Shown: positions 21,107 to 41,991 of the stretch, piece after piece
Position numbering within the stretch: the stretch's first letter is position 1
Layout: the number at the start of each line of letters is the position of its first letter
Assembly (NCBI GenBank): GCA_017557865.1
Contig: JAFYXW010000004.1
Span: 1-41,991, forward strand
Length of the DNA: 41,991 bases
Direction of reading: 5' to 3'
DNA from: Candidatus Saccharimonadota bacterium
GTDB lineage: Bacteria; Patescibacteriota; Saccharimonadia; Saccharimonadales; Saccharimonadaceae
Translations under genes and position numbers: made by a program
Notes under the pieces: model-generated
The model's input: the letters and a program-made list of their open reading frames with translations, nothing else
Databases searched by the model: none
Told to the model about the DNA's origin: nothing

Positions 21107-21679
21107 TTATTTCTTTAATGCAAGTTTGATACGGTCTTCTACTGGCAAGGATTTGTCTACGTCTTCGAGGGCGAGAGTAGCTTCTTTTAGTGGGAAGCCA
21201 AGAGCGATGAGGGCATCTAAGGCTTCGTCTGATTTTTCTTCGGCAGTAGTAAAAGTAGTAGTGGCGCCGTAATGTGACGGAATGCCAACTTTATCGCGAA
21301 GATCTACAATTACACGTTCGGCGGATTTTTTACCGACGCCGGATGCTTTGGAGATGAAGGCGGTATCTGCGTTAGCAATGGCATTACGAACCTCTTCGGC
21401 TTCGGCAAGAGAGAGAATTGCGATGCCGGCTTTTGGGCCAATTCCCTGTACGGAAATCAAGAGTTCAAATAGTTTTTTGGCAGCGAGGGAAGAGAAGCCG
21501 TATAATTCTTCGGCATTTTCGCGAATTGAATGGTAAGTGAAGAATTTTCTTTCTTCGTCTAGATTAACGGATTCAAAATCTGGAGTAGGGATGGTGATTT
21601 CATAGCCAATCCCGTGCACATCAACAATAATCGCATTCCCAAACTTCTCAACAATCTTACCCTCGATATGCGCAATCAT
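21107..21679 (-). CDS. ruvA: Holliday junction DNA helicase subunit RuvA
   Basis: Tetrameric protein that binds Holliday junctions and loads RuvB. The 190 residues show the N-terminal OB-fold (MIAHIEGKIVEK, GIGYEI), two helix-hairpin-helix motifs (VQGIGPKAGIAILS and ASGVGKKSAERVI, about 78-120) and the C-terminal RuvB-contacting domain (ALIALGF, KEATLAL). It is transcribed in the same direction as ruvC but has its own minus-strand TATAAT 6 nt before the ATG, and a large inverted repeat lies in the gap. No ruvB is found in the window, although ruvC-ruvA-ruvB is the common arrangement. Confidence 0.95.
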   Translation of the reverse strand: MIAHIEGKIVEKFGNAIIVDVHGIGYEITIPTPDFESVNLDEERKFFTYHSIRENAEELYGFSSLAAKKLFELLISVQGIGPKAGIAILSLAEAEEVRNAIANADTAFISKASGVGKKSAERVIVDLRDKVGIPSHYGATTTFTTAEEKSDEALDALIALGFPLKEATLALEDVDKSLPVEDRIKLALKK

Positions 21680-33885: not shown

Positions 33886-36087
33886 ATGATTTATTATCTC
33901 GGATCTCTTGGTGTAGTTTTGCTGGCGCTTATTTTTGCTCTTGTCTGCTTCCTGCTCTTAATAAAAAAGAAAGAAAGCGATGACGATGAAATAACAAAAG
34001 AAATGCCCGAAATAGCAAAAATCATCAGGGAGGGTGCTTTCACCTTTATGAAAAAAGAATATTTGGCGATAATCATCACGGTCCTTTTATTTGCTGTATT
34101 TGCAACTCTCTTTATTGAGAAATCATCAGGACTCACGTTTATCGCAGGCGCACTTGCCAGTTCGGTCGTGTGCGTTTTTGGTATGGTAACAGGAACTTAT
34201 GGTAATGTCAGGACAACCTATGCCGCTTACAAAACAAACAACATTGGAAAGACGGTACAGGTGGCACTTCTTGGTGGCACGGCAATTGGTGTGCCGGTGC
34301 AGGCAGTAACGCTGCTTGGCTTAATTCTGATTCCGCTCTTGACGGGAGGTCTTAGGCTTGACGCAGTGAGTACTGGACTTTTGTCACATTCTATAGTGAA
34401 CCCTACGATTATGAGAATTTCTACTTATTCGTTGGGATGTTCACTGGTGGCGATGTTTAACCGTGTTGCTGGTGGTAACTTCACTAAGGCAGCAGATATT
34501 TCTGCAGACTTGGTAGGAAAAGTTAGATTCGATATGCCTGAAGATGATTCGAGAATGCCGAACACGATTGCTGATTTTATTGGTGATCTTGTAAATGATA
34601 TTGCAGGTAACTGTTCGGATCTTGGCGAATCGTTTACAGCGACAATTGCATCCAGTCTTATGATTGCAACACTGATTGCGAAAGGCAATAATCCGGCTAT
34701 GTTTAAAGCTACCATTATTTACCCTATCGTATTTGCAGCTGGCGGTCTTTTATCATGCCTTCTTGGTCTTTCATTTGTATTGCTCCACAAAGCAAGCAAG
34801 AAGCCTGAAAGAGAACTCAATATTGCGACTTATGTTTCGGCAATACTTGCAGTCTTAATTGGCGGTGTTTGCAGCTGGTTTATGTTTAGAGGCGTAGAGC
34901 TTTACGATTCGTTTAAACTTGGCTGGGCTAGCCCTTGGATACCGAGTATTTTTGGTATTATAAGTGGCGTAGCAGTTGGTAAAATCACAGAATACTATAC
35001 TTCTACAGAGTATAAACCGGTAAAAGGCTTAGTAAGATCGGCCCTCGACGGTGCACCATTCTTGGTAACACTTGGCGAGTCTCTTGCTGCTAGATCTGCT
35101 CTTGCCCCGGTTGCAATTATTGGTATTTCTATTTATGTTAGTTATGAACTTTGTGGTGTCTACGGTGTAGCGATTGCCTCGATTGGTATGCTTTCGTTTG
35201 TAGCAACTACTGTCTCTATTGATGCGTTTGGACCGATTTCGGATAATGCTGGTGGTATTGCGGAATCTGTCTTTGGCGAGAATCCGTTGTATAAGTTTGT
35301 TCGTTCAATCACTGACTTACTTGATGCAGTAGGTAATACTACAGCAGCAATGGGTAAGGGTGCCGCTATTTGTTCAGCAGCTTTTGCAACATCTAGCTTG
35401 ATTCAGTCGTACGTAAGTTCGTATTCTGATAATCCGCTTAATCCACTTCTTAATGCAGCATCAATTAAAGTTATCTTTGGTCTGCTGGTCGGCGCCGTAC
35501 TGGTACAGTTCTTCGAAGGATTGCTGGGCAGAAATACGATTATTTCGGCCATCGCGCTTGCAGCTGAAGGACTTAAACAGCTTGCAAGACCTGGCGTTAT
35601 TGAAGGAGACGAAAGGCCTGATTACGAAGCAGTTATTTCGCTCGCAAGTAAGAATGCACTTAGGCGAATGGTTATACCTTCGATAATTGCGATAGTTGTA
35701 CCAATAGTAACTGGTTTACTGTTTGGCGTAGAATTTTTGGGTGGCATTTTGCTTGGTGCCACAGTATTTGCGGTTCCTAGAGCTATCTTTATGGGTAACT
35801 CTGGTGGCGCTTGGGATAATGCAAAGAAATTTGTTGAAGAAGGTAAGCTCAAACTCACGATAGATGATATCGAATACGCTACTGGCGTAAAACCGAAGGA
35901 TAAAGCTGAGTTTGACGCATCTTGCAAAGTTTTACTCGAGGAAGTGCATAAAACGACGGTTATTGGCGACACCATTGGTGATACCAATAAGGACGTTATT
36001 GGCGTAGCTCTCGATATCTTTATTAAGACGATGAGCACAGTAGCCAACAACATCGTTCCCATCATTATGCAGGTCCATTTATTATAA
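33886..36087 (+). CDS. hppA: membrane-bound ion-pumping pyrophosphatase, divergent
   Basis: Hydrolyses PPi and pumps Na+ or H+ across the membrane. The 733 residues contain about 16 membrane helices. Family motifs are FTKAADISADLVGK with KAAD at 201-204 (usual KAADVGADLVGK), IADFIGDLVND with Asp230, Asp234 and Asp238 (usual IADNVGDNVGD), GPISDNAGGIAE, GNTTAAMGKG at 483-492, and a degenerate C-terminal GDTIGDTNKDVIG in place of GDPFKDTSGP. All PPi- and Mg-binding Asp residues of these motifs are kept, so activity is likely. Ala in GNTTAA (not Lys) points to the K+-dependent class, and the semi-conserved Glu248 in LGES is the type seen in Na+-pumping members; both are inferences from family knowledge. 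Leadered mRNA with SD; a strong terminator follows. Confidence 0.9.
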   Translation: MIYYLGSLGVVLLALIFALVCFLLLIKKKESDDDEITKEMPEIAKIIREGAFTFMKKEYLAIIITVLLFAVFATLFIEKSSGLTFIAGALASSVVCVFGMVTGTYGNVRTTYAAYKTNNIGKTVQVALLGGTAIGVPVQAVTLLGLILIPLLTGGLRLDAVSTGLLSHSIVNPTIMRISTYSLGCSLVAMFNRVAGGNFTKAADISADLVGKVRFDMPEDDSRMPNTIADFIGDLVNDIAGNCSDLGESFTATIASSLMIATLIAKGNNPAMFKATIIYPIVFAAGGLLSCLLGLSFVLLHKASKKPERELNIATYVSAILAVLIGGVCSWFMFRGVELYDSFKLGWASPWIPSIFGIISGVAVGKITEYYTSTEYKPVKGLVRSALDGAPFLVTLGESLAARSALAPVAIIGISIYVSYELCGVYGVAIASIGMLSFVATTVSIDAFGPISDNAGGIAESVFGENPLYKFVRSITDLLDAVGNTTAAMGKGAAICSAAFATSSLIQSYVSSYSDNPLNPLLNAASIKVIFGLLVGAVLVQFFEGLLGRNTIISAIALAAEGLKQLARPGVIEGDERPDYEAVISLASKNALRRMVIPSIIAIVVPIVTGLLFGVEFLGGILLGATVFAVPRAIFMGNSGGAWDNAKKFVEEGKLKLTIDDIEYATGVKPKDKAEFDASCKVLLEEVHKTTVIGDTIGDTNKDVIGVALDIFIKTMSTVANNIVPIIMQVHLL

Positions 36088-36153: not shown

Positions 36154-36870
36154 ATGTCGTTTAGGTTGCGGAGGTTACTAGTAGTATTATTTGCTGCAGG
36201 CAGCACGGTAGCTTTTTTGTTGTTAAACCCAGCAAGCTACGAAGCAATTTTTTCACGCGTAGAAAATCTTGGCGCCGAACAAGTAGCAGCCTCTAGTGAA
36301 ACAGGAGCGCGTTTGGCTACGGATATACTAGAAGAGCTCGAAGTAAAGGGACGTGCGCCAAAAACCGGCTATACGCGTGAAGAATTTTATAGTGGTTGGC
36401 CAACGGTAGATGGCTGTAATTTGCGTCAAAAAATCATTAAAAGGGAATTTGGTGAAACGGCAGTTTTAGACGGCTGTAATGTGGTTTCTGGCGAGTACGA
36501 CGAGCCATATACGGGCGAGCACAAGGTTTTTTCTCGGCGCGAGGAAATTTCTAAGGGTGTGCAGATAGACCATGTAGTGGCGCTGTCTGACGCTTGGCAA
36601 AAAGGCGCGCAGTATATGAGTAAGGAAACGCGTTACGAGATTGCAACTGACCCGCTAAATCTACTAGCGGTGGATGCATCGGCGAATGAGAAAAAGTCTG
36701 ATGGCGATGCGGCAACGTGGTTACCTTCTAATAAAAAGTTTCGTTGCCAATATGTGGCTAGGCAGGTGTCGGTAAAATATAAATATAAACTTTGGGTAAC
36801 CGCCGCCGAAAAAGAAGCCATCAAAAGAGTGCTTTTAAATTGTCCAAATGAGCCGGCAGTTGGTGTATAA
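36154..36870 (+). CDS. secreted/anchored HNH-type nuclease (DUF1524/GmrSD-C-like)
   Basis: A 238-residue protein with a basic start and a hydrophobic segment (about 7-24: LLVVLFAAGSTVAFLLL) acting as signal peptide or anchor. A linker leads to a nuclease domain: YTREEFYSGW, DGCNLRQ, LDGCNVVSGEY, then the catalytic motif QIDHVVALSDAWQKGA with Asp139-His140, ATDPLNLLAV with the conserved Asn, and NEKKSDGDAATWLP. This is the pattern of the secreted HNH family annotated as DUF1524. Two Cys pairs fit an extracytoplasmic location. It would degrade external DNA and supply nucleotides. The stop codon is part of the -10 box of the next gene. Confidence 0.9.
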   Translation: MSFRLRRLLVVLFAAGSTVAFLLLNPASYEAIFSRVENLGAEQVAASSETGARLATDILEELEVKGRAPKTGYTREEFYSGWPTVDGCNLRQKIIKREFGETAVLDGCNVVSGEYDEPYTGEHKVFSRREEISKGVQIDHVVALSDAWQKGAQYMSKETRYEIATDPLNLLAVDASANEKKSDGDAATWLPSNKKFRCQYVARQVSVKYKYKLWVTAAEKEAIKRVLLNCPNEPAVGV

Positions 36871-37578: not shown

Positions 37579-38096
37579 TGGCAGTAAAAGACCGGCGCAA
37601 AATTTGGTTTTTAGTGATGGTATTGGTGTTTGTGGTAATTTTTAACGTGACTTTGATTGGCACTATTAACGGCTGGTTTGGAACCGGAAAAGTAACAATA
37701 GACAAAGAATACACGTGCCAGTGTGGCGATAACTGTATTTGCTCCCTAGATTACGATCTTTTGTCCGTAGAAGAATACGAGAAAATGGCAGAGGCGGGCA
37801 AATCTTTTGTGGTGTTTATAGACCAAGGCGGTTGTGCGACGGCGGACGATTTGGAGGGGTATGCTGATAGATACGCAGGGGAACACGGGATAAAGATTTT
37901 TCGCATGGTATATGAAGACGTCAAGGAATCTAGCCTGGGCGACTCTGTAAAATATTATCCATCCGTGGCAATTGTGTCGCGTGGGCAACCTTTTGTGTGG
38001 CTCCGCGCTGACAGCGACGAGGACGCGCCGGCCTACAATAGTTATGAAGAATTTGAAAAGTGGATGGACGGCTGGGTTGTGGAAAACTTTTCTTAA
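37578..38096 (+). CDS. anchored thioredoxin-fold-like protein with single active-site-type cysteine
   Basis: A 172-residue protein. A basic N-terminus and one membrane helix (about 9-30) are followed by a Cys-rich short segment (Cys47, Cys49, Cys53, Cys55), then a thioredoxin-like core: SFVVFIDQGGC with Cys86 where thioredoxins carry the first Cys of CxxC, and KYYPSVAIV with the cis-proline. The second Cys of CxxC is missing (CATA). The four N-terminal Cys could bind metal or form a separate redox pair. It overlaps the rhodanese-like gene by one base with an SD (GGAGG) inside that gene. Probably extracytoplasmic thiol chemistry; partner unknown. Confidence 0.72.
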   Translation: MAVKDRRKIWFLVMVLVFVVIFNVTLIGTINGWFGTGKVTIDKEYTCQCGDNCICSLDYDLLSVEEYEKMAEAGKSFVVFIDQGGCATADDLEGYADRYAGEHGIKIFRMVYEDVKESSLGDSVKYYPSVAIVSRGQPFVWLRADSDEDAPAYNSYEEFEKWMDGWVVENFS

Positions 38097-38114
38097 AATT
38101 TGATGTTGAAATAC

Positions 38115-38143
38115 TTGACAATGCGTTTATGTTTATTTATAAT
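38115..38143 (+). promoter_or_regulatory. consensus promoter (TTGACA, 17 bp, TATAAT)
   Basis: -35 at 38115-38120 and -10 at 38138-38143, both perfect; the only fully consensus promoter I found in the window. It drives the secreted protein at 38220 through a 70-nt leader. Confidence 0.92.
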
Positions 38144-38148
38144 TGGAC

Positions 38149-38174
38149 TTGTTAAAGGTCATAACATTTAACAA
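38149..38174 (+). promoter_or_regulatory. 5'-terminal stem-loop of the secreted-protein mRNA
   Basis: Perfect 8-bp inverted repeat TTGTTAAA-N10-TTTAACAA starting at the predicted transcription start. A second element, TCCGC-TATTG-GCGGA (about 38193-38207), lies next to the SD AAGGAG and could pair with or expose it. Confidence 0.6.
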
Positions 38175-38219
38175 ATAAACAAATTTTAATTCTCCGCTAT
38201 TGGCGGAAGGAGAAAAAAC

Positions 38220-38753
38220 ATGAAAAAATCAATGATTGCAGCTGGTGCAGCTTCTCTCGCTCTTGCAGCCATGCCAGTAGTGGGAGTTTTTGCTGCTACG
38301 TCGCAAGTAGATACATTGAATCTAACTGTCACTTCGTCTTGTGCAATGACGAATACTGCTGGTTCAGGTGCTACCACAAATACTTATACTGCTACCGCTG
38401 GGCTAAACGAAACAGTGACTTTTGCTGCAGAAAACAGCGACCCTACCATCCTGACGGTTGTTTGTAACTCTGGGTACACTATTACCCCTACATTTACGAA
38501 GCTCGATGGCCCTAGCACAGACGATATCGAATACGCCTCTACTTTGGCTGCTGGTAAATGGACTGCAGGTTACAAACTCGGTTCTGCTGCAAGCTTTACT
38601 CCAATGACTAGTAGTACGGCTATCACCTCTGCTACTTCTTCTACTACCGATGCTTATTCGTTTGAATATAAAGCACAAACTACCACAACCCAAACGCAAG
38701 GTACATACACAGGTACTGCTACCTATGTATTAGCTGCAACGGCAAATCAATAG
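38220..38753 (+). CDS. abundant secreted beta-sandwich protein, WxL-like
   Basis: A 177-residue protein with a clear signal peptide (MKKS, hydrophobic core, cleavage near VFA-AT at 25-26). The mature part is rich in Thr, Ser and Ala, with two cysteines (Cys41, Cys82) that could form one disulfide. Alternating strands end in GTYTGTATYVLAAT, which resembles the closing strands of WxL domains (GTYT-T--W-L) with Tyr in place of Trp. This is a pattern judgement, not a proven family. It has the strongest promoter in the window, a stabilising-looking leader and a perfect hairpin after the stop, so it is probably a major surface protein. The two genes after it encode anchored proteins. Confidence 0.78.
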   Translation: MKKSMIAAGAASLALAAMPVVGVFAATSQVDTLNLTVTSSCAMTNTAGSGATTNTYTATAGLNETVTFAAENSDPTILTVVCNSGYTITPTFTKLDGPSTDDIEYASTLAAGKWTAGYKLGSAASFTPMTSSTAITSATSSTTDAYSFEYKAQTTTTQTQGTYTGTATYVLAATANQ

Positions 38754-38772
38754 TTTGTTTAACAACAAAACA

Positions 38773-38803
38773 TAGAAAATCCCGGGTAGGCCGGGATTTT
38801 CTA
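38773..38803 (+). terminator. perfect 13-bp hairpin between secreted protein and anchored partner
   Basis: TAGAAAATCCCGG / CCGGGATTTTCTA with a GTAGG loop. No proper T run follows, so it may be a partial terminator or an mRNA-stabilising stem that lowers expression of the downstream genes relative to the first. Confidence 0.75.
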
Positions 38804-38820
38804 TTATAAAAGGAGAAAAA

Positions 38821-39378
38821 GTGGAAGGACTCGGGAAAAAATCAAATAAAAAGTATTGGCTAATATGGCTTAGTGTCTTAATAGTGGTGATAATAGTTTT
38901 TGTGCTGATGAGAATGAATGGAACAGTCACCGAAAACAATAAAGAAGAAAATGTCGTTACAACTACTTTGAGCTGCCAAGCCGAGAATGTTGCCTATCCT
39001 TTTTTTGAAAAAAACGATGGTACCAGTAAAACCCTCAAAATTACGGCATCCTTTTCTAACGACGAGCTTAGTAGTATCTACCTAAAATATTTTATGGCCT
39101 ATGATAGTGCCGACGCAATTGAGAGGAGCGAAGCAACTAACCACTTCCATGTTAGCAGAATGTTTGAAAATGATGGGTTGGCGCCGGCCGCCTATACTTC
39201 TACCTACAACCAACTAGATGACGGTCTACAGTTTTCGATCTATGCCAGTGGTAGCGAAATTGATGAATACGCATTGAAATATTTTATGCTGGGTGGTATG
39301 ATTAATCTTAGTAAGTATTCGATGGAAAACGTAGAAAAGGTGTATGCGGATGGTGGAATAAGCTGTGCCAAAGAATAA
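38821..39378 (+). CDS. single-pass anchored protein of unknown function
   Basis: A 185-residue protein starting with GTG, chosen because AGGAG at 38811-38815 is spaced 5 nt from it and no ATG fits. A Lys-rich N-terminus is followed by one membrane helix (about 12-32), then an extracytoplasmic domain with two cysteines (LSCQAENV near the start and GGISCAKE near the end) that could close the domain with a disulfide. The domain has alternating polar strands (TLKITASFSNDELSSIYL, LQFSIYASGSEI). No family recognised. It lies between the secreted protein and the DUF916-like protein and is probably part of the same surface system. Confidence 0.75.
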   Translation: MEGLGKKSNKKYWLIWLSVLIVVIIVFVLMRMNGTVTENNKEENVVTTTLSCQAENVAYPFFEKNDGTSKTLKITASFSNDELSSIYLKYFMAYDSADAIERSEATNHFHVSRMFENDGLAPAAYTSTYNQLDDGLQFSIYASGSEIDEYALKYFMLGGMINLSKYSMENVEKVYADGGISCAKE

Positions 39379-39400
39379 CCATCAAAATTTAAGGAGGTAA

Positions 39401-40381
39401 ATGAAAACGAAAAGTTTTATAAAAAATAAGTTTTTGGCTGCACTTGTGGCCATAATGTTATATCCACTCGTTTTTTCGCCATTAACCTACGCCAGTGAAA
39501 CGTCGTTTTCCGTCACCCCTATGACCACCGAAATTATTCTAGAACCAGGTGAGCATTATACCGGCACTTTTGAAGTTCATAATCCAGCAACAGCATCTAC
39601 TAATATTGAATACAAAGTAGTAGTAACACCATATTATGCCTCAGACGATGAAGATGGTGCATATTCCTACCAGTATGATGAAAGAGTCGGTGTTAACAAT
39701 GAAATATTAGACTGGATTACTTTTGTGTCCGGTAATACTGGTGTATTAGCCCCTAACGAGAATGGAAGGGTGCTTTATGCAATAGATGTGCCAGAAGACG
39801 CTCCTGGCAATGGTCAGTATGCCGCCTTCAAAGTGACCGCAAAAGAAGCTGGTCTATCTGGAGAAACCGAAGAAAGTAACGCTGGCGCAATGGGCATTAA
39901 GCAAGAATTTGCGATTGCACATTTACTCTTTGCCGAGGTGACTGGAGAAACTGTAAAATCTGGCGATATCCTGAATCTAAATATGCCTAGCCTTATTCTT
40001 TCTGGTAATATTACTGGTTCTTCAATTGTAAAAAACACTGGTAACGTACATGGTAAGGCAAAATATACCATGCAAGTATTTCCGTTATTTTCTAGTGAAG
40101 AGATTTACACTAACGAAGAACATCCAGACGCCTATATCGTCTTACCAGATCGTTCTCGCTATGTAGAAACAGCTTGGAAAGAAACCCCAGCTGTAGGTAT
40201 CTTTAATGTAGTTTATACAGTAGAATTTGAGGGCAAAACTCAGCAACTCTCGAAATTGGTTATCAAATGTCCAATCTGGCTACTCTTTACTATTATCTTT
40301 GTAATCGCCGTAATTGCCCTCTGGGTAGTAATGAAATATCGCTCCAGAAAAAAGAGCCGTATCAAAAACGAAGATTTTTAA
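39401..40381 (+). CDS. membrane-anchored protein resembling WxL-interacting (DUF916-type) proteins
   Basis: A 326-residue protein with signal peptide (about 1-31, ending SPLTYA-S), an extracytoplasmic region and a C-terminal membrane helix (about 292-312) followed by a basic RSRKKSR tail. The N-terminal FSVTPMTTEIILEPGEHYTGTF and FEVHNPA strands, ending with DVPEDAPGNGQYAAF, resemble DUF916-like domains that bind WxL proteins and peptidoglycan in Gram-positive bacteria. The assignment is moderate. The SD AAGGAGGT is optimal. It is the last gene before the 23S rRNA promoter. Together with the abundant secreted protein upstream it suggests a non-covalent surface-anchoring system. Confidence 0.72.
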   Translation: MKTKSFIKNKFLAALVAIMLYPLVFSPLTYASETSFSVTPMTTEIILEPGEHYTGTFEVHNPATASTNIEYKVVVTPYYASDDEDGAYSYQYDERVGVNNEILDWITFVSGNTGVLAPNENGRVLYAIDVPEDAPGNGQYAAFKVTAKEAGLSGETEESNAGAMGIKQEFAIAHLLFAEVTGETVKSGDILNLNMPSLILSGNITGSSIVKNTGNVHGKAKYTMQVFPLFSSEEIYTNEEHPDAYIVLPDRSRYVETAWKETPAVGIFNVVYTVEFEGKTQQLSKLVIKCPIWLLFTIIFVIAVIALWVVMKYRSRKKSRIKNEDF

Positions 40382-40400
40382 AAAAAGTAGAAAAAAGGTG

Positions 40401-40429
40401 TTGACTTAGGGGTTTTTGTTTGATATAAT
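40401..40429 (+). promoter_or_regulatory. 23S rRNA promoter (TTGACT, 17 bp, extended -10 TGATATAAT)
   Basis: -35 at 40401-40406 and -10 at 40424-40429, close to consensus. It begins 19 bases after the last protein gene and about 200 bases before the 23S 5' end. Confidence 0.9.
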
Positions 40430-40435
40430 AGGGGA

Positions 40436-40626
40436 AGTTTAAGCAAGTCGGCATTTCCGACCTCTACAAAAAAGATATGGAAAGCGAGGAATCTTTTGAG
40501 GTCGCTTTGACGACTTCAGGATACTTCTTTAAGACTCTCCAATTAACAATTTGAGATTAACGATGAAAAGATTTTAAAGACGGAACGAGTAATCGAACTT
40601 CGATTGCTAGTTAAGTCAATGCATAA
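40436..40626 (+). other. 23S rRNA leader
   Basis: About 190 nt between the predicted transcript start and the rRNA. Two similar 7-bp hairpins are seen (AAGTCGG-CATTT-CCGACCT at 40445-40463; GAGGTCG-CTTTGA-CGACTTC at 40498-40517). A CTTCTTTAAGACT stretch at about 40524-40536 resembles a boxA antitermination site. There is no 16S rRNA and no recognisable tRNA in it. Confidence 0.65.
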
Positions 40627-41991
40627 AAAGGTAATCAAGGGCACTGATAGTGGATGCCTTGACAATCAATACCGATGAAAGCCGTAGAAGTCTGCGATAA
40701 GCCTCGGGGATCTGACAGCGAGAATTGATCCGGGGATTGCTGAATGGGGAAACCTAATATGGGTCATGCCATATTGTCGCTACCTGAACACATAGGGTAG
40801 AAGACGGGAACCGACCGAACTGAATCATCTTAGTAGGCCGAGGAAAAAAGAATAACTAATGATTCCGAAAGTAGTGGCGAGCGAAATTGGAACAGTCTAA
40901 ACCTTAAGATAACCATACGGTTTAACGGCCAGAGTTATTAAAGGGGTTGCGAAATTAGATAATTTTTATGCTGAATTTGCGATTTTCGTAGGTTCGGCAT
41001 AAAGACCGATAGCGTTAACTAAGCGGGTAAAGATACAATCCTTTAGATCCTAGCAGAAGTACTTGGAATGGTACGCCAGAGAGGGTGAAAGCCCTGTACG
41101 CGAAAGGGTCTTAGGCTTTATTTATCTATTTTCAAGTAGGACGGGGCACGAGAAACCCTGTTTGAATCCGGCAGGACCACCTGCCAAGACTAAATATATT
41201 GATTGATCGATAGCGAACTAGTACAGTGATGGAAAGGTGAAAAGAACCCCGGGAGGGGAGTGAAATAGATCCTGAAACTCAGTGCCTACAAGGTGTCGGA
41301 GGGCTTCGGCCTGACGGCGTGCTTTTTGTAGAACGATCCAGCGAGTTAATGTTGTTGGCGAGGCTAAGTCAGATGATGGAGCCACAGTGAAAGCGAGCCT
41401 GAATAGGGCGACAAGTCAGCAGTATTAGACCCGAAACCGGGTGACCTAACCATGAGCAGGTTGAAGCTGCGGTAACACGCAGTGGAGGACCGAACCAGGG
41501 TACGCAGTAAAGTGCTTGGATGACTTGTGGTTAGCGGTGAAATGCCAATCGAACTCGGAGATAGCTGGTTCTCCTCGAAATAGCTTTAGGGCTAGCGTTT
41601 AGTAGTAGCATACGGGGGTAGAGCTCTGAAAAGGTCTGGGGCGGGCAACCGTACCCATCCTTATCAAACTACGAATACCGTATGTGTAATCTAGGCAGTC
41701 AGAACGGCGGGGCTAAGCTCGTCGCTCAAAAGGGAAACAGCCCAGATCATCGTCTAAGGTCCCTAATTAACACTAAGTGGGAAACAAGGTGAGATTTCTT
41801 AAACAGCTAGGATGTTGGCTTAGAAGCAGCCATTCATTTAAAGAGTGCGTAACAGCTCACTAGTCAAGAGACTTTGCGTGGAAAATGTAACGGGGCTAAG
41901 TATTAAACCGAAGACATGGGATTCTGCTTTGCAGGATCGGTAGAGGAGCGTTGATATTGCGGTGAAGTCGTATTGTAAAGTACGGTGGAGC
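40627..41991 (+). rRNA. rrl: 23S ribosomal RNA, 5' part (partial at window edge)
   Basis: Large-subunit rRNA beginning near 40627. Universal segments are recognisable in order: GTGGATGCC (40650), CTGAATGGGGAAACC (about 40740), AGTAGTGGCGAGCGAAA (about 40871), GAAAAGAACCCCGGGAGGGG (about 41239), GGTGAAATGCCAATCGAACTCGGAGATAGCTGG region (about 41536) and CTAAGGTCCCTAA (about 41754). The visible 1365 nt correspond to domains I and II. Spacing agrees with ordinary bacterial 23S, including the longer domain-I arm typical of Gram-positive-like rRNAs, so I see no intron in this part. The rest lies beyond the window. It has its own promoter and is not preceded by a 16S gene. Confidence 0.97.

Follow-up and report, generated by a model that had tools for sequence, protein, structure and literature searches.

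We analyzed a 41,991-nucleotide stretch of DNA from a Candidatus Saccharimonadota bacterium (hereafter, the window), whose source genome comprises 694 kb in 24 contigs. Our subject is a cassette of three genes near the end of the window, here called P1, P2 and P3, which lies behind a consensus promoter, probably encodes a system of surface proteins and in sister species appears to be switched by DNA inversion. P1 codes for a protein of 177 amino acids with a signal-peptide-like start, a composition rich in Thr, Ser and Ala, and the C-terminal end GTYTGTATYVLAATANQ. The P2 protein (185 amino acids, GTG start codon) has an N-terminal hydrophobic segment and two cysteines that are invariant in 16 of 16 aligned relatives (21 candidates were considered). 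P3 (326 amino acids) has a signal-peptide-like start and a C-terminal hydrophobic helix followed by a basic tail. None of the three has a Pfam or NCBIfam match above cut-off, and searches of PDB sequences with the P1 and P3 profiles gave nothing convincing. Profiles of all three genes showed that their order is kept in other Saccharibacteria, where promoter and leader recur upstream as well, and the cassette is thus more than a chance arrangement. A search of one genome collection for relatives of P3 gave 20 loci, of which 19 come from records named Candidatus Saccharibacteria and one from a record titled 'uncultured bacterium'; many of these records are titled from ruminant gut.

The promoter is the sole site in the window that matches the sigma-70 consensus at 12 of 12 positions, as found by three scans covering the window. 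The runners-up, at 21477, 32867 and 40401, match at 11 positions, and the last lies just upstream of the 23S rRNA gene. Weaker sites between 36000 and 41991 were about as frequent as in shuffled sequence (10 observed versus a mean of 11.9), so that only the perfect score and the conservation in relatives count as evidence. The promoter is thus the strongest of the window in the sense of a consensus score, not of a measured strength. Its -10 box lies 76 bases before the start codon of P1. These results bear out several statements of the initial annotation, which had placed the strongest promoter of the window before a small secreted Thr-rich protein, had described the second protein as anchored and closed by cysteines, and had assigned the DNA to a probable member of the candidate phyla radiation.

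Table 1 Features of the P1-P2-P3 cassette in the window.
Feature	Position	Strand	Basis
Sigma-70 promoter, TTGACA-17-TATAAT	38115..38143	+	12/12 consensus match; recurs upstream of P1 relatives
Palindrome TTGTTAAA-N10-TTTAACAA opening the leader; probable hairpin in the 5' RNA	38149..38174	+	Leader comparison, folding
Hairpin directly 5' of the Shine-Dalgarno sequence	38193..38207	+	Comparable stem in leaders of relatives
Shine-Dalgarno sequence of P1	38208..38212	+	AGGAG read directly in the sequence
P1, WxL-like/pilin-like, small and secreted; probably the major product	38220..38753	+	Open reading frame, profile, predicted model
Terminator-like hairpin between P1 and P2	38772..38804	+	Minimum free energy -23.8 kcal/mol for 38751-38815, z -6.41
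P2, membrane-anchored, two invariant Cys, no known family	38821..39378	+	Open reading frame, alignment
P3, WxLIP-like, two immunoglobulin (Ig)-like domains and C-terminal transmembrane helix	39401..40381	+	Open reading frame, profile, predicted fold

The layout of the leader is consistent with a strongly expressed first gene. We call copies of P1 active or silent according to whether a promoter is present or absent, which is not a measure of transcription. The leaders of active copies are strikingly alike (35 of 41 were aligned): the promoter is followed by a palindrome beginning TGTTAAAGG, an A-rich spacer and a second hairpin that ends at the Shine-Dalgarno sequence. This second hairpin is not well aligned among leaders, and its stems were therefore counted per sequence; 39 of 41 distinct leaders reached the score, whereas 100 shuffles gave 3.3 on average and at most 8. 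The stems differ in sequence yet pair (TCTGC/GCAGA, TCCAC/GTGGA, TCCGT/ACGGA). The leader of the window folds at -15.6 kcal/mol (z -3.24). Downstream of P1, a terminator-like hairpin comparable to that of the window is present in 59 of 62 P1-P2 gaps, versus 0 of 62 shuffled gaps. Shuffling preserved base composition only, both in these two comparisons and in that of the L024/L027 segment described below. The hairpin after P1 suggests that the bulk of the transcript would cover P1, with partial read-through into the anchor genes and P1 in excess over P2 and P3. Promoter, leader and hairpin fit a major product, and P1 may form the main surface layer of the cell, as the initial annotation had proposed.

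An Rfam search of 37900-38900 returned two rows, the better with an E-value of 0.18, far under the gathering scores. The exact 23-base palindrome was absent from the viral contigs searched. The idea of a regulon was rejected, as the pattern TAWAATN{4,14}AAAGGTYAT occurs only twice in the source genome, one occurrence being this locus.

In the AlphaFold2 model of P3, built from 25 sequences (of 27 candidates) and with a mean predicted local distance difference test (pLDDT) of 85.4, a signal segment precedes two beta-sandwich domains, and a helix forms the C-terminus. The top three rows of a Foldseek search of the PDB are all the WxLIP protein of Enterococcus faecium (9i1y_A, 9i1y_B and 9i25_C, E-values 3.4e-11 to 2.9e-10), with TM-scores by query of 0.37-0.40, which are low since the angles between the domains differ. 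The same structures, 9i25 and 9i1y, head the VIA-align rows (Z 13.3 and 13.0 over 229 and 234 residues), and their large root-mean-square deviation (rmsd, 8.4 and 8.6) likewise indicates different domain angles. A single-domain match, 7sqc_F0 (Z 12.9, 103 residues, 1.9 A), ties with WxLIP within 1 Z and PapD-like chaperones come next at Z 10-12, so the fold alone is not decisive. That both domains are covered adds to the case, as does the Pfam family PF06030, the most frequent match among P3 relatives (14 of 25, all below threshold, best E-value 3.7e-4); P3 of the window itself missed the cut-off and gave no row for PF06030 in the Pfam search. In addition, P3 shows the WxLIP architecture of two tandem Ig-like domains and a transmembrane helix within 320-380 residues. 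We call P3 WxLIP-like, without filing it as a member of WxLIP, and the earlier description of an anchored DUF916-like protein holds, the E. faecium WxLIP being of the DUF916-DUF3324 type.

Relatives of P3 were also sought on mobile elements. P3 of the window had no match among plasmids, the P3 protein of L017 had two weak ones, one annotated DUF916, and the P3 profile had none among viral contigs. On the Arthrobacter plasmid pYA7-1a (L037, 4196-6501), a protein annotated DUF916 matches the P3 profile with 48 bits (E-value 3.6e-17 in a one-sequence search) and is flanked by two small secreted proteins. This is a similar module in the phylum to which the known hosts of Saccharibacteria belong, the actinobacteria.

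The nature of P1 is less clear-cut. For its alignment we used 22 of 25 candidates (L019, L031 and L032 were left out) and skipped three more, namely two stretches within long proteins and one protein lacking a signal peptide. The resulting model is a beta-sandwich with a mean pLDDT of 76.6 (22 sequences). Foldseek found nothing in the PDB at E-values of 0.001 or below; the best rows were a p24 GOLD domain (0.0065), the fimbrial protein BPSL1626 (0.0073) and the AfaE-3 adhesin (0.0077). VIA rows were a hexosaminidase domain (Z 8.5), EcpA (Z 8.4, 130 residues, rmsd 3.4) and again BPSL1626 (Z 8.2). Since fimbrial subunits recur among these matches, we also call P1 pilin-like. No WxL chain was among the structure matches listed, which leaves room for lower-ranking ones.

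WxL proteins carry two conserved W-x-L motifs in a domain at the C-terminus, according to the excerpted text of PMC9772566. The alignment of P1 relatives has a motif CN..GW/Y-x-aliphatic mid-protein and a motif GTYTG..TYTL at the C-terminus, and their positions appear to correspond to those of the WxL motifs. At these places P1 of the window has Y-x-I and Y-x-L, neither with a tryptophan, and some relatives have W-x-aliphatic at the first motif. Two profile comparisons extend the link. First, P1 is connected to the small neighbors of P3 found across the phylum (96.2%, E-value 2.7e-9; 16 of 27 such neighbors aligned), a link that is partly circular because the neighbors were chosen as P1-profile matches beside P3. 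Second, these neighbors are connected to the Pfam-WxL proteins of Patescibacteria (92.7%, E-value 4.1e-7). The latter occur in 10 of 192 genomes of other Patescibacteria at E-values of 0.01 or below, three of them over the cut-off, and three of the 10 fetched WxL loci (L192, L193 and L196) also contain a P3-profile match. The WxL alignment comprised nine proteins from the 10 loci, the long proteins L188 and L196 being left out and L190 contributing two.

A number of observations count against assigning the cassette to the WxL systems. The best structure matches of P1 are mixed in kind, and the Pfam WxL family PF13731 had no match among the 22 P1 relatives or anywhere in the source genome. A direct comparison of the P1 profile with that of Pfam WxL gave a weak 17% over 32 C-terminal columns, which include the C-terminal motif (four control pairs gave 0.2-6%). 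P3 lacks the segment NQIDKxxxYFDLK, a conserved N-terminal feature of WxLIP according to PMC10599100; the window has SVTPMTTEIILEPGEHY there, and the consensus of the family is SPMxQxIxLxPG. Further, the open reading frames of the window include no large WxL protein, P1 being single there. With both motifs of the aromatic-x-aliphatic type and WxL relatives reached through intermediates, 'WxL-like' is nonetheless fair as a description of P1. The initial annotation, which had called P1 WxL-like and proposed structure comparison with WxL and DUF916 domains, therefore stands in part: the motifs, the indirect link and the predicted WxLIP-like fold of P3 agree with it, whereas P1 fails the Pfam family, lacks the tryptophans, has only the weak direct link and resembles fimbrial and other beta-sandwich proteins.

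The same data bear on a different view, that P1 is the pilin-like subunit of a chaperone-type fiber and P3 its PapD-like chaperone, the likeness to WxL motifs being convergent. It would account for the fimbrial matches of P1, for the chaperones that follow WxLIP among the matches of P3 and for the low direct score. Yet WxLIP outranks the chaperones for P3, and the small P1-like proteins and the Pfam-WxL proteins of Patescibacteria, linked to each other by profile, both stand beside P3-type genes. No usher was seen among the open reading frames of the window, although no search was aimed at ushers; moreover, the folds of WxL proteins and pilins may in any case be akin. We regard a pilin fiber as a rather doubtful explanation, if one to be taken seriously, and prefer a WxLIP-type anchor with a WxL-like partner. 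P1-like stretches also occur within long multi-domain proteins (L025, 7312-9366; L026, 9413-10408; L198, 1543-3021).

The cassette is widespread; a search for further copies had been suggested by the initial annotation. Within the genus, 128 of 147 genomes contain P1, with a maximum of 22 matches per genome, which equals the number of candidates that were scored. A search with the single P1 sequence matched only 9 of 198 genomes of the family, the profile being far more sensitive. P3-type proteins are present in 153 of 379 genomes across Patescibacteria (E-values of 1e-6 or below). Among 30 P3 loci fetched from across the phylum, 19 have a P1-profile match in the fetched stretch (1e-3 or below in our own small database); such E-values are relative to the databases searched. 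A P2 match was found at 2 of the 30, both from the genus of the window; P2 therefore seems to have joined an older P1-P3 module locally.

In sister species, P1 genes occur head to head at twelve distinct loci among the stretches compared (L013, L015, L017, L024, L027, L132, L133, L134, L135, L136, L138 and L139). Each has exactly one P1 with a promoter and an AAAGG leader (12 of 12 loci, 26 copies in total). A copy was scored as ON if it had a promoter score of at least 10, at position -60 or further upstream, and AAAGG no more than 22 bases downstream of the -10 box. If no limit were set on position, this definition would also admit the silent copy L133:6805 (score 11 at -50, its AAAGG being its own Shine-Dalgarno region), and if AAAGG were not demanded, it would admit L027:3035 (score 10 at -119). 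Start codons were misassigned automatically in at least one copy (L179). Outside the twelve loci, 39 of 71 P1 copies are ON by the strict definition and about 52, counted by hand, without the AAAGG demand; many of the remaining copies belong to tandem arrays or stand alone and silent next to a recombinase gene (L130, L137, L140 and L141).

Active and silent copies part at the palindrome. In the 14 silent copies, identity with the active copy begins in its loop or second arm and continues through the leader into the signal peptide. Local alignment placed the start there in 13 of the 14; the alignment of L027 strays with gaps, and by eye its start is the same. Within a locus, signal peptides are 62-100% identical and mature P1 proteins 33-65%, and the silent frames are open. 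Were inversion to cross over within the palindrome, the result would in every case be a full site beside the promoter plus a half site, in line with the copies observed. L024 and L027 both have the same arrangement, with the recombinase gene beyond the right-hand cassette. Their left-hand P1 genes are orthologous (77% identity in the mature part), but L027 has the active form and L024 the silent one. Between the copies, the segments of the two loci align in reverse complement, with a score of 113 as against a shuffle maximum of 76, whereas direct orientation gives no alignment (36); most of the aligned stretch is promoter region. This two-species comparison suggests that the promoter has moved.

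A gene for a tyrosine recombinase is located in 11 of the twelve loci, that of L138 with two stop codons. The twelfth, L013, has none at the locus, and its genome has one beside another silent P1 (L137). The four recombinases tested belong to the Phage_integrase family (PF00589). The recombinase family was found in 30 of 147 genus genomes at E-values of 1e-43 or below, with the next match at 2e-24; among the matches listed, the others resemble ordinary Xer proteins.

Such a gene could instead be the integrase of a phage or other mobile element, with the palindrome as its attachment site and the cassettes inserted rather than flipped. This would agree with the palindromes kept in single-copy loci that lack a recombinase, with recombinase relatives on the IMG/VR contigs L199 and L200 (43% identity over the whole and 46% over part) and with the more distant members of the family, which had no P1 in the four regions fetched. 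It sits badly with the closer members, at least 50% identical to that of L027 (included), of which 15 of 17 have P1 in the same stretch and the other two lie less than 1 kb from a contig end. Nor were mobile-element genes noticed between recombinases and cassettes, although no search was aimed at them. We consider insertion by an integrase quite improbable.

Alternatively, the silent copies may be donors for gene conversion or dead duplicates, and homologous recombination may keep the leaders alike with no inversion at all. The near-identity of leader and signal peptide within a locus (at several loci, 48-62 identical bases run up to the start codon) speaks for this view, as do the silent copies with half a palindrome, the L015 silent copy, which is a P1 alone without P2 and P3, and the two stops in the L138 recombinase. 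Conversion or duplication accounts poorly for the same parting point at all loci, for the recombinase gene at nearly every one and for the open silent frames; further, two promoters or none were never met in the twelve loci, and orthologous cassettes differ in state. We judge this explanation unlikely, and favor inversion: the head-to-head loci look like a switch of the type known as Vpma in Mycoplasma.

Some findings nevertheless speak against inversion or narrow its reach. Silent copies have only one arm of the palindrome rather than there being two full inverted sites, and ON and silent states were compared between species. Single-copy genomes retain the palindrome as well, and the length of its loop varies; it should therefore have some further role, and a function as recombinase site alone was rejected for these reasons. 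Tandem arrays L147, L148 and L152 have more than one promoter-bearing P1, so the rule of one promoter is limited to the head-to-head loci; copies in such arrays may just be co-expressed. Most of the genomes are draft assemblies, and each species is represented by one. An assembly error or contaminating sequence could account for one locus but would not explain the pattern, because the same structure recurs in twelve.

Further observations concern the same group of loci. L147 (G576:C7), L148 (G605:C3), L149, L150 and L151 carry four to six P1 genes in tandem, several copies of an array having a promoter of their own. Contigs L016, L023, L130 and L176 end 61-183 bases upstream of P1, as expected at a repeat or where both orientations occur. 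The paired P2 genes of L017 (1185-1372 and 5381-5568) share a 188-base inverted stretch of 97% identity and then diverge, which would make a second place of exchange.

From these comparisons we propose the following model. The strong promoter and structured leader would drive P1 as the bulk product, a secreted beta-sandwich protein, and the hairpin behind it would pass only part of the transcripts into P2 and P3, whose products would be retained at the membrane. P3 would act as WxLIP-type anchor or chaperone and hold P1 at the cell surface, where its role would most likely be contact with a bacterial host. Two or three cassettes with like leaders and signal peptides and divergent exposed parts would share one promoter in sister species; the adjoining recombinase would invert the promoter-bearing segment by crossing over at the center of the palindrome, and one version would be expressed at a time. 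We think it likely that the locus is a surface-protein cassette of this kind, with P1 in bulk, a WxLIP-type anchor, an inversion switch in sister species and a form fixed ON in the window. With somewhat less assurance, though still on the favorable side, we extend this to Saccharibacteria in general: in these bacteria, whose genomes are reduced and which live on other bacterial cells, recombinase-driven inversion of one promoter between whole P1-P2-P3 cassettes would change the major surface protein, a Mycoplasma-like antigenic switch that is aimed at bacterial hosts or phages, not at an immune system, and is built on a WxL-type anchoring module found through much of Patescibacteria, with the window as a locked single-copy form.

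The genome of the window differs from this switch in lacking several copies and a dedicated recombinase. It has one P1; a second P3-type gene stands beside an anchored protein of 291 residues, with no P1 there, and the best recombinase match is distant (33% identity over query residues 123-284). Promoter, palindrome and leader are retained. The window is best read as an apparently always-on form of the locus, since a single copy in a genome without such a recombinase would be fixed ON.

The surroundings of the cassette are partly shared. Upstream lie a membrane H+-pyrophosphatase (33886-36087; PF03030, E-value 1.9e-169) and a protein with a GmrSD_C (HNH-type) domain after an N-terminal hydrophobic segment (36154-36870; E-value 2.4e-17), possibly an exported nuclease, similar genes to which adjoin the cassette in sister species. 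By eye, genes resembling those at 36154, 36895 and 37578 are also found beside L015, L017, L024 and L027. A 23S rRNA gene directly follows the cassette (40381-41991) with its own promoter, TTGACT-17-TATAAT at 40401; no 16S rRNA gene was apparent ahead of it, both being judged by eye, as if the rRNA genes were unlinked.

Additional adhesins acting at close proximity after type IV pili have been proposed for Saccharibacteria in the excerpted text of a 2025 study (PMC12206443). The P1 cassette is a candidate for such close-range attachment to the host, being widespread in the genus, strongly promoted, surface-directed and diversifying. If so, a switch that selects its version would bear on host range, escape from phages and competition. 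The findings further suggest that WxLIP-type anchors, which have been described chiefly in Firmicutes, reach into much of Patescibacteria as well. Among the matches listed, we found no earlier report of such a switch for Saccharibacteria or Patescibacteria. Our literature searches found nothing joining Saccharibacteria with WxL; for Saccharibacteria and phase variation the terms were unrelated in the paper examined, and for Patescibacteria and DNA inversion only unrelated work was found.

Three known systems invite comparison. Chaperone-usher pili share the fold classes of P3 and, loosely, of P1, as judged by structure searches; P3, however, is membrane-anchored and matches WxLIP better, and an usher was neither seen in the window nor specifically sought. 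The WxL/WxLIP clusters of Firmicutes (DUF916-DUF3324, PF06030; WxL, PF13731) likewise place a gene for a small secreted two-motif protein, with the second motif C-terminal, next to one for a protein with two Ig-like domains and a transmembrane helix. The window differs in lacking the motif tryptophans, a large WxL protein and NQIDKxxxYFDLK and in missing the Pfam cut-offs, and its cassette has the extra gene P2 and belongs to another phylum, Patescibacteria. In the Vpma system of Mycoplasma agalactiae, as described in the excerpt of PMC2268961, the recombinase Xer1 rearranges surface-lipoprotein genes relative to one promoter, recombining in the 72 bases before their start codons. Whole cassettes stand head to head in the sister species and encode secreted WxL-like proteins, whereas Vpma has lipoprotein genes; inversion is here proposed from gene arrangement, and the window itself has no switch. 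As far as that excerpt goes, the likeness of the sister species to Vpma lies in one promoter for several surface-protein genes, exchange in the 5' untranslated region and an adjoining tyrosine recombinase gene, and by this analogy Vpma would be the closest known system in mechanism.

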